64,000 nt of DNA from a virus: positions 1 to 64,000 of IMG/VR virus record IMGVR_UViG_3300044718_000102. One strand, written 5' to 3'. The position numbers and the translations under genes are program-made. Within the stretch, counting starts at the first letter, position 1. Every line of letters begins with the position of its first letter. Positions 1,803 to 63,069 of the stretch are shown here, piece by piece. A model generated the notes under the pieces. That model did no database searches and was not told the origin of the DNA. It saw nothing but the letters and a program-made list of their open reading frames with translations.

Positions 1803-2152
1803 CACCGCGCGAACGCATCCGCCGCCTCTCGGGCCCCGAGATCGAGCTCACCGTGCACCTCTACAAATCAGGCGCGGCCGCCACGCCGGTGCGCGTGATC
1901 GCGACCGCGATCAAGACCGCGATGACGCTGCGCAAGCTCGGCCTGGCGCACGCCTGGTCGCGCTACTCGGAGGGCCGCGGATCGGACGGCCCGTTCTTCA
2001 CGCTCACCAGCGCCGGCGTCTACCGCGCCGAGGAGCTCTACCTCTCGCGCCAGCAGGGGCGCGGGCCGTCAACGATTTCTCAGTCGAGTACCGCGCACAG
2101 TGCGTCCCAACCAAGTCTCTTCAACCCAGGAGACGACCATGAACGTTCGTAG
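1799..2152 (+). CDS. hypothetical protein, possible winged-helix fold (117 aa)
   Basis: Starts with GTG inside a GTGA overlap. The body reads like a compact helix-turn-helix or winged-helix (hydrophobic helix around VRVIATAIKTAMTLRKLGLA, then a turn and FTLTSAGVYRAEELY), as in small phage regulators; this is a shape judgement, not a family match. It overlaps the next start by 14 nt. Confidence 0.55.
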   Translation: MTPRERIRRLSGPEIELTVHLYKSGAAATPVRVIATAIKTAMTLRKLGLAHAWSRYSEGRGSDGPFFTLTSAGVYRAEELYLSRQQGRGPSTISQSSTAHSASQPSLFNPGDDHERS

Positions 2153-2642
2153 TTTCGACCCCGCCCAGGGCCAAGCCTTCCAAGGCGATGTCGCCATCAT
2201 CCCGATGCCGGGCGACATCGCGATCGCGCGCAACGATGAGGTCAGCCCGGTCAAGGGCCGGCTGATCTTGCAGGAGGGCGAGGTCACCGGCCATCACCAC
2301 GCGATCAAGCTCGAGCGGCACTTCCGCACGAGCCAGTCGATCGTCGGCGATCCGGCGACCGCGACGCGCGACGCGCGCCTGCGCAAAGCGTTTCGGGCCA
2401 GCAGCAAGCCCGTCGCCGCGGCGTCGGTTCGCATGTTCCGCGATCTGACCGCCGTCAACGAGCTCGTCCGCCGCGGCATTCTTACCCGCGCGGACCTCGC
2501 CGTCGGCTGCCTCGTCGTCGAGGGCGAGCCGGTCACTGTGAGCCACGAGGAGCACGACGCGATCCGCCTGCCCGCCGGCAACTACTACGTCGGCCGCCAG
2601 GTGGAGAGCGCCGGCGCCGAAGAACGCCGGGTGAAGGACTGA
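2139..2642 (+). CDS. partner protein upstream of DUF6745 gene (167 aa)
   Basis: The ATG at 2139 follows an AGGAG Shine-Dalgarno. The fold looks beta-rich with a GHHHAI histidine motif near residue 53 and a conserved-looking C-terminal block (VVEGEPVTVSHEEHDAIRLP) before an aromatic-Arg end. Proteins of this pattern are, from memory, often found directly upstream of DUF6745 genes, as here (3-nt gap). The clustered His residues could bind metal; no function is known to me. The two genes probably form a functional pair. Confidence 0.7.
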   Translation: MNVRSFDPAQGQAFQGDVAIIPMPGDIAIARNDEVSPVKGRLILQEGEVTGHHHAIKLERHFRTSQSIVGDPATATRDARLRKAFRASSKPVAAASVRMFRDLTAVNELVRRGILTRADLAVGCLVVEGEPVTVSHEEHDAIRLPAGNYYVGRQVESAGAEERRVKD

Positions 2643-2645
2643 GCC

Positions 2646-4049
2646 ATGGTGAAGCGCGTCGATAGCCTCTCCCCGGAGCAGACCGCCAGGATGGCGGCCC
2701 ACCGGGACAAGTGGATTGCGCTCGGTCTCTCGACCGAGCGCATGAGCTCCGATGACCATCGCGACGTGGAGTCGGCCGTGCGGCTCTGGTACCGCCGCGC
2801 CAACTTCGAACAGCCGAAGGCGGTGATCTTCGTGCCCTCGCCGTTCACGCTGCGCATCGCCACCGGGATCGCGGCCGGCGCGATCCACGTGGTCCGCAAC
2901 GGGTGGCCCGCGCCTCAAGACAGCGCGGTCCACAGCGCGGTCCGCAGCGCGGTCGGCAGCGCGGTCCACAGCGCGGTCCACAGCGCGGTCCGCAGCGCGG
3001 TCCACAGCGCGGTCCACAGCGCGGTCGGCAGCGCGGTCGGCAGCGCGGTCCACAGCGCGGTCCGCAGCGCGGTCCACAGCGCGGTCGGCAGCGCGGTCCA
3101 CAGCGCGGTCGGCAGCGCGGTCGGCAGCGCGGTCCACAGCGCGGTCCACAGCGCGGTCCGCAGCGCGGTCGGCAGCGCGGTCGGCAGCGCGGTCCACAGC
3201 GCGGTCCACAGCGCGGTCGGCAGCGCGGTCCGCAGCGCGGTCCACAGCGCGGTCCACAGCGCGGTCCGCAGCGCGGTCCACAGCGCGGTCGGCAGCGCGG
3301 TCGGCAGCGCGGTCGACAGCGCGGTCCGCAGCGCGGTCGGCAGCGCGGTCCACAGCGCGGTCTATTTCCTCCTGCGCTGCGCCCAGGGGGCCCATGCGAA
3401 CGAATGGTACGCCAACCTGTGGCCCGGGTGGGCGGCCTGGTGCACCTACTTCCGCGACGAGTGCGAGCTCGAGCTCGACGTCGCCATGATGGATGCGCTC
3501 GCGTCGATCGAGGCCATCGACTCGACGGCCAACGCCATCTCATTGCATCGCGACTTTGCGATGGTCTCCGACCGGCCACACCTGCTCAAGCGCGATGCCG
3601 CCGGCCAACTCCACGGCGCGGACGGACCGGCGATCGCTTGGCGCGACGGCTGGGATCTCTACTTCTGGCACGGCCAGCGCATCCCTCGCGATCGCGAGTG
3701 GATGATCGCGCGGCCAGCCGAGCTCACCCCCGACAAGATCGAGGCCGAGACAAACGCGGAGCTGCGCCGCATCGCGCTCGAGATCTTCGGCTTTGAGAAC
3801 TATCTCGTCGCTCGCCACGCCCGCGTGCTGGCCGCCGACGAGCTGCATGGCCAGCCACGGCGCCTCCTCGAGGTGGACGTCGCCGGCGCACCGGTGCGGA
3901 TTATCGAGGTGACGAACGGCTCGCTCGAGCCCGACGGCACGCGGCGGAAATTCCACCTCGGCGCCATGCCGGGCGAAAACCCGCATGAGGCGATCGCGGC
4001 GAGCTACGGCATCAATCCGCGGCACTACCGCGAGGCCGTGCGGACGTGA
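2646..4049 (+). CDS. DUF6745-type protein with 37 SAV tetrapeptide repeats
   Basis: 467 residues in three parts. The N-terminal ~90 residues (VIFVPSPFTL motif) and the C-terminal ~210 (DGPAIAWRDGWDLYFWHG, then ARVLAADELHGQPRRLL and TNGSLEPDG) match what I know of the uncharacterised DUF6745 domain. Between them, residues 92-239 are 37 uninterrupted copies of xSAV with x = His, Arg, Gly or Asp. Related proteins carry degenerate xSVx repeats in the same place; here they are perfect at DNA level. The repeat zone may form a solenoid or a helical rod. Next gene starts in a GTGA overlap. Role unknown; co-encoded with the HHH-motif protein. Confidence 0.8.
   Translation: MVKRVDSLSPEQTARMAAHRDKWIALGLSTERMSSDDHRDVESAVRLWYRRANFEQPKAVIFVPSPFTLRIATGIAAGAIHVVRNGWPAPQDSAVHSAVRSAVGSAVHSAVHSAVRSAVHSAVHSAVGSAVGSAVHSAVRSAVHSAVGSAVHSAVGSAVGSAVHSAVHSAVRSAVGSAVGSAVHSAVHSAVGSAVRSAVHSAVHSAVRSAVHSAVGSAVGSAVDSAVRSAVGSAVHSAVYFLLRCAQGAHANEWYANLWPGWAAWCTYFRDECELELDVAMMDALASIEAIDSTANAISLHRDFAMVSDRPHLLKRDAAGQLHGADGPAIAWRDGWDLYFWHGQRIPRDREWMIARPAELTPDKIEAETNAELRRIALEIFGFENYLVARHARVLAADELHGQPRRLLEVDVAGAPVRIIEVTNGSLEPDGTRRKFHLGAMPGENPHEAIAASYGINPRHYREAVRT
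2919..3362 (+). repeat. 37-unit 12-bp in-frame tandem repeat
   Basis: Thirty-seven head-to-tail 12-bp units of the form NNC-AGC-GCG-GTC. Only bases 1 and 2 vary: CAC 16 times, GGC 12, CGC 7, GAC 2 by my count. The other ten bases never change. The unit is a multiple of three, so copy-number change cannot break the host gene. The regularity opens long false reading frames on both strands. Confidence 0.97.
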
Positions 4050-61469: not shown

Positions 61470-61510
61470 TGGCGGGAGCGACGGGACTCGAACCCGCGAC
61501 CTTCGGCGTG
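61470..61510. other. probable prophage attachment end (attachment core in tRNA 3' end)
   Basis: The intact tRNA-Asp 3' half adjoins the last phage gene with only 85 nt between. No second copy occurs in the window; the other end should carry a duplicate of part of this segment outside the left edge. Exact core unknown. Confidence 0.6.
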
Positions 61511-61546
61511 ACAGGCCGACGCTCTAACCAACTGAGCTACGCCCCC
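61470..61546 (-). tRNA. tRNA-Asp(GTC)
   Basis: Acceptor arm GGGGGCG/CGCTCCC, D loop AGCTCAGTTGGTTAGAGC, anticodon loop CCTGTCACG with GTC, T arm GGTTCGAGTCCC and encoded CCA. All four arms fold by eye. The 3' end faces the integrase gene, so this is the likely attachment gene and the integration has kept the tRNA intact. Confidence 0.96.
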
Positions 61547-62993: not shown

Positions 62994-63069
62994 TGGTGGG
63001 CGGTGACGGGCTCGAACCGCCGACCCTCTCGGTGTAAACGAGATGCTCTACCAACTGAGCTAACCGCCC
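62994..63069 (-). tRNA. tRNA-Val(TAC)
   Basis: Acceptor GGGCGGT with a pairing 3' arm ACCGCCC, D loop AGCTCAGTTGGTAGAGC, anticodon loop CGTTTACAC (TAC), T arm GGTTCGAGCCC and encoded CCA. Chromosomal. Confidence 0.95.

Follow-up and report, generated by a model that had tools for sequence, protein, structure and literature searches.

The question raised by this locus is why a phage protein should carry a long and perfectly regular tetrapeptide array in its middle, and why that array is so uniform at some positions and so varied at others. The stretch of DNA analyzed here (the window, 64,000 nucleotides) makes up most of a 64,270-bp IMG/VR virus record, which also encodes a terminase, a major head protein, a head-tail adaptor, and an integrase/recombinase. 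The gene belongs to a temperate phage. In addition, tRNA-Asp and tRNA-Val genes are located on the minus strand of the record, at 61470-61546 and 62994-63069, respectively.

The open reading frame at 2646-4049 on the plus strand codes for a DUF6745 protein of 467 amino acids, into which a tetrapeptide array is inserted at residues 92-239. It begins with an N-terminal region (residues 1-91, 2646-2918, SLxPEQxxRMxxxRDKW...) that is conserved in the family alignments with or without an array, and it ends with a C-terminal region (residues 240-467, 3363-4046), in which residues 283-464 (3492-4037) match the Pfam model DUF6745 (PF20530; E=7.7e-32, 110.7 bits, gathering cut-off 27). The array itself (2919-3362) contains 37 tandem in-frame 12-bp units at exact spacing, (C/G)(A/G)C-AGC-GCG-GTC, which are translated as xSAV. 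The invariant unit string AGCGCGGTC is present in 37 consecutive copies at 12-bp spacing, and these copies with the preceding codon form the array. The x codons are CAC (16 units), GGC (12), CGC (7), and GAC (2), coding for His, Gly, Arg, and Asp, respectively, and the remaining ten bases of the unit are invariant in all 37 copies. The first-pass annotation of this DNA, which had reported 37 perfect xSAV units at residues 92-239 with variation in the first two bases only, was exact. Tandem Repeats Finder scored the array at 674, vs at most 72 elsewhere in the window. All six frames are open across the array, including a 424-aa minus-strand ORF at 2121-3395, and the plus frame is regarded as the real coding frame because DUF6745 homology is found on either side of the array. 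A PADLOC search gave no meaningful match; the PADLOC 'REase_II' and PHROG tape-measure matches fall in the repeat and were taken as composition artefacts.

Searches with the C-terminal part as the query identified phages with the same order of N-terminal region, array, and DUF6745 domain. For example, the Mycobacterium abscessus prophage prophiGD102-1 encodes a DUF6745 protein with xDQL/xGQL units, and phage cta39025 encodes one with xSSL units. When IMG/VR was scanned with a DNA pattern for xDQL/xGQL units, in a way that was blind to DUF6745, 66 stretches were returned. When pattern-found and homology-found loci were aligned, all 43 of the 43 members, namely the window protein and 42 relatives, matched the PF20530 model, which covers the C-terminal domain only and neither the array nor the partner gene described below. 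Uncut arrays contain 6 to 62 units, with a median of 23. Two array-less relatives (L021, L022) align across the place where the array is inserted, and array-less DUF6745 genes are also present in chromosomes. The two chromosomal array-bearing loci that were examined both lie among phage genes, which include an integrase and a repressor or anti-repressor.

Metagenome contigs are the source of most arrays, and the assembly of the array in them may be imperfect. In 28 of the 65 pattern-found array loci (L065-L129), the contig or locus stops no more than 15 nt from the array. Arrays thus seem to break short-read assemblies, and the family is probably under-sampled. Several contigs, such as IMGVR_UViG_3300032897_000003, carry the array at two places, and in one locus (L114) the DUF6745 gene shifts frame inside the array. 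Near-identical DUF6745-array loci were also observed on plasmids 2 and 3 of Nocardia farcinica NCTC11134 (L142 and L144; 0 mismatches and 3 gaps over 3.2 kb), and on plasmid 3 the array ORF is shifted out of frame, which a sequencing error might explain.

Variation within the arrays is distributed very unevenly over the unit. Of 18 arrays that were found via DUF6745 homology and not via the array sequence, all 18 were polymorphic at base 1, 14 at base 2, and 12 at base 5. Polymorphism at the degenerate positions was rare by comparison, being present in 1 array at base 9 and in 2 arrays at base 12 (Fisher p ~4e-9 and ~4e-8 vs base 1, respectively). Within arrays, the final two residues of the unit are constant, as are almost all third codon positions, and the first residue, in many lineages the second too, differs among a few unit types. 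The variable x codon has a purine at its second base in 430 of 452 units (95%). Across the family x is Gly, Arg, Asp, Trp, His, Ser, Glu, Tyr, or Asn, with Leu in two lineages, and Gly is the commonest. The core of the unit differs by lineage both in its residues (SAV, GAV, DQL, SQV, AQV, SSL, SAT) and in its codons (GCG GTC, GCG GTT, GCG GTG, CAG CTC, TCT CAG GTG, and others), and a tree of the C-terminal domain requires 13 or more changes of the core motif. These differences indicate that each lineage has re-homogenized its own unit, and that the amino-acid pattern is conserved and not the DNA. The 60-unit array L015 is informative in this respect. Its sole synonymous polymorphism, GTC/GTT for Val, is linked to the next codon in 60 of 60 units, with GTC before the Asp codon and GTT before GGC or CGC (Gly or Arg). 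Therefore, units have been copied whole from a few founders.

The order of the units follows no simple rule. Over 61 arrays, adjacent identical x residues were slightly rarer than expected by chance (420 observed vs 461 expected), and the same 61 arrays showed no clear period in unit order of the kind that solenoid faces would give. Repeated blocks inside the window array were not in excess over chance. The depletion of adjacent identical x, together with the lack of a block excess in the window array, is unlike simple slippage. Neutral variation has been lost while unit types persist, which makes it likely that variety at x is selected at the protein level. A mutation process specific to these sites would be an alternative to such selection.

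Comparisons between close relatives show how the arrays change. Three copies of an M. abscessus prophage gene carry 46 units (L029), 19 units (L109), and at least 20 units (L068, in which the contig starts within the array). There are 0 mismatches among the three over 2,130 nt 3' of the array, 0 between L068 and L109 over 3,000 nt 3', and 0 between L029 and L109 over 873 nt 5', and the arrays have collinear shared unit blocks and shared ends. A fourth allele, L126, contains 62 units and shows a single mismatch over the 666 nt immediately 3' of the array, and its unit order is unrelated to that of the other M. abscessus alleles. This order exceeds simple unit gain or loss and may reflect array replacement or rapid turnover. 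In two further contig pairs with near-identical flanks, the 3' part of the array is common to both members. In the clade of the window, arrays of 10 units (L014) and 60 units (L015) are embedded in surrounding DNA that is ~81-88% identical. No relative of the window was found that is near enough for an allele-by-allele comparison, and the best such comparison concerns xDQL arrays and not the xSAV array of the window.

These results bear on most of what the first-pass annotation had proposed. Its suggestion that length can change without a frameshift agrees with the M. abscessus alleles, which vary in copy number with the frame kept, and the comparison that it advised, of copy number and unit order in related prophages, revealed differences in both, even between alleles with identical flanks. 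Neither equal array length and order in relatives nor silent changes throughout the array, the two patterns it had named as contrary to its view, were found across the family. Recent expansion or homogenization, which it had inferred for the window, is borne out for the family by the identical-flank alleles and the founder units, but for the window array itself no near-identical relative was found. As for its suggestion of a surface-like binding or rod-like part, AlphaFold assigns the array no confident fold. Taken together, the array is very probably a fast-changing module driven by recombination.

The array gene does not stand alone. A gene coding for a protein of 167 amino acids (QGDV...GEVTGHHH...HEEH...LPAGNYYVGRQVE...) is located at 2139-2642, adjacent to the DUF6745 gene and on the same plus strand. 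It starts with the ATG at 2139 after AGGAG, and stops 3 bp ahead of the DUF6745-array gene. Members of this family share the motifs GE(V/A)(T/S)GHxH and HEEH, and both the GHxH and HEEH motifs are present in the window protein. The family matches PHROG 27831, which has no assigned function, and no Pfam model matched it. Adjacency was assessed in 51 loci that extend 900 nt or more upstream of the array. Of these, 12 end within ~250 nt after the array and cannot be judged on the downstream side; in 39 of the 39 judgeable loci a partner homologue adjoins the array gene, upstream in 28 and downstream in 11. The small-protein family was seen at L077-L128 and L143, in phages and chromosomes and in either gene order.

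Partner homologues are also found near array-less DUF6745 genes (L022, L023, L027, L043, and L045). In Streptomyces cadmiisoli, an array-less DUF6745 gene and the partner both adjoin STM4013-4015 genes. A second array-less actinobacterial DUF6745 locus adjoins STM4011-4015. The array-less neighbours of the STM4011-STM4015 cluster (radical SAM, hydrolase, STM4015) in actinobacteria are L143, which has the partner, and L147. We propose that the GHxH/HEEH partner and the DUF6745 protein may form a two-gene module, of which the window would hold the phage version, and we infer that the array is an elaboration, by mobile elements, of an older two-gene system. The partner gene, which was previously undescribed, and the wide distribution of DUF6745 arrays are the new elements of this study.

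Our best overall explanation, to which we assign a probability of about 50%, is that the locus may be a recombination-tuned module for conflict, as suggested by analogy with gp54 of mycobacteriophage Tweety (see below). In phages and prophages, the N-terminal region and the C-terminal domain of the DUF6745 protein are separated by arrayed four-residue units. Copy number and order change with the frame kept, mostly as expected from gain, loss, and shuffling of whole units. This turnover would wipe out neutral variation, and unit types would persist through protein-level selection for variety at x. Less certainly, the array might tune how far a protein that acts inside the host can reach, or the surface with which it makes contact. 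The setting would be conflict of phage with host or of prophage with phage, and the likeliest role counter-defence or superinfection immunity.

Several other explanations have to be weighed. The array might be an adjustable spacer or rod, that is, a linker of variable length between the flanking parts in which the identity of x is irrelevant. The range of copy number from 6 to 62 in uncut arrays and the existence of array-less relatives are in line with this, as are the Tweety escape mutants, which alter copy number and for which a juxtaposition of the N and C parts was proposed (PMC9262239). However, x is polymorphic in 18 of the 18 homology-found arrays and is drawn from a restricted, mostly polar, aromatic, or Gly set, while synonymous sites are nearly fixed, and a pure spacer needs neither. 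A spacer is thus unlikely to be the full explanation. A neutral minisatellite is more doubtful. In this case, slippage would have expanded a GC-rich repeat of 12 bp within a linker that tolerates it, in a gene that the phage can do without. The unit is frame-neutral, gp54 relatives with runs of one unit exist, and the gp54 gene is missing in phage Llij (PMC2884959), all of which could be expected of such a repeat. Neutral turnover, however, should hit all positions alike, and here bases 1 and 2 are polymorphic and synonymous bases are not; moreover, the core residues that recur between lineages are encoded by different codons, and adjacent identical x residues are not in excess.

An equally doubtful explanation is a modular recognition array, in which each x contacts one target element and the order of units spells specificity, as in TAL effectors. 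Unit order varies between arrays with no clear periodicity, the x residues (G, R, D, W, H, E, Y, N, S) include many that commonly make contacts, and similar arrays are found on at least four protein types. The structural results, in contrast, give such an array no confident fold. In the AlphaFold model of a relative with 10 units (L124, 43-row alignment), the parts flanking the array are confident (mean pLDDT 85, pTM 0.77; per-block pLDDT 88-98 over residues 1-70), whereas residues 106-129 of the array have pLDDT <50 with a lowest block of 40, and the array of the window protein reaches pLDDT ~30-40. Both models render the array as helical, but at low confidence, and we do not trust this fold. 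Sequence searches of solved structures gave weak matches only, to the repeat, a fold search of the L124 model against solved structures gave nothing below E 0.89, and its viral fold matches were other DUF6745 or unnamed phage proteins. It also speaks against recognition that no target is known, that the commonest x is Gly, and that the reported Tweety data concern copy number and not order. It is very improbable that the repeat functions at the DNA level, as an array of protein-binding or replication sites that is incidentally translated; ten bases are identical in all 37 units, but other lineages write the amino-acid pattern with other codons, the protein context and the partner are conserved, and a DNA motif common to the family is absent. 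Least probable of all is an assembly artefact, to which the frequent position of arrays at contig ends and the array of L114 broken across frames might point, since annotated records of individually isolated phages show similar arrays and copy-number differences.

The preferred explanation, a conflict module tuned by recombination, leans on Tweety gp54. Among the arrays of this kind that we found, it alone has been studied by experiment, and the number of its repeats changes the prophage defence that is defeated. The gp54 family includes Che8 gp57 and PMC gp51, and the gene is absent from the related phage Llij (Pham et al., 2007, PMC2884959). According to reviews, mutants of Tweety that escape the prophage defences of Phrann and MichelleMyBell usually carry a changed number of repeats, either higher or lower (PMC9262239, PMC8549241), and the mechanism is called obscure by the gp54 authors. 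Four gp54 alleles with 0 mismatches in 537 flanking positions carry ~48, 38, 30, and 16 repeats. Similarly to the DUF6745 arrays, the 12-bp/tetrapeptide array of gp54 is bounded by N and C parts that are unique, it varies at the first and second positions of two codons with third positions fixed, its residue alphabet overlaps (G, W, S), and, as in the M. abscessus alleles, its copy number varies between identical-flank alleles. However, the core is AA in gp54 and SAV or DQL in DUF6745 arrays, single-unit runs (GS) are common only in gp54, and the GHxH partner gene is a feature of the window that sets it apart from gp54. Homology of the gp54 N and C parts to DUF6745 was rejected (hhalign probability <=0.5% in all four comparisons), and in BLASTP the whole proteins align essentially through the arrays alone. 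Because its flanks are unrelated, gp54 is a precedent in kind and not a member of the family. By this analogy, the precedent would point to phage-host or phage-phage conflict rather than to a virion rod, and we consider the odds about even that the DUF6745 array might serve a counter-defence or immunity role like that of gp54. The DUF6745 module occurs widely among phages and prophages, those of M. abscessus included, and has natural alleles whose sole difference lies in the array. With such alleles and a conserved partner, whether repeat number or unit order sets specificity is directly testable.

Other known systems resemble the DUF6745 arrays in part. AAxS arrays are also present on DUF6745 proteins (L130, L135), on DUF7666-like proteins (L132, L134, whose DUF7666 matches fall under the Pfam cut-off), and on a 'GCTLHS' family (L131, L136). 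The DUF7666-like and 'GCTLHS' phage proteins share tetrapeptide arrays with x = W/E/R and others, and their flanking domains are unrelated. In the library searched, no paper was found for DUF6745 or DUF7666. In variable region 2 of the Bordetella phage (bbp36), an in-frame coding repeat likewise varies in copy number between isolates, but by its description it is a 24-bp element with spacers, unlike the DUF6745 arrays (PMC2884959). Diversity-generating retroelements likewise produce targeted amino-acid diversity at fixed codon positions, whereas DUF6745 arrays reshuffle a few unit types; such a retroelement was rejected here, as no reverse transcriptase (PF00078) was found in 9 array-bearing phage records, some of which are fragments. 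DUF6745 arrays may therefore represent a route of protein diversification that seemingly does not need reverse transcriptase. The repeats of het-d and het-e are WD40 repeats in a eukaryotic protein. Concerted evolution of these fungal NLR repeats (PMC12222747) offers an analogy, with highly similar internal repeats and hypervariable positions in a conflict protein. More tentatively, variable tetrapeptide arrays might constitute a hypervariable module that is general among temperate phages and occurs on four protein types or more (DUF6745, DUF7666-like, 'GCTLHS', and gp54-like), in which recombination reshuffles a few founder units and retunes the protein in prophage-phage or phage-host conflict, and which in DUF6745 was added to a pre-existing two-gene system that is also found array-less beside STM4011-STM4015 in actinobacteria.
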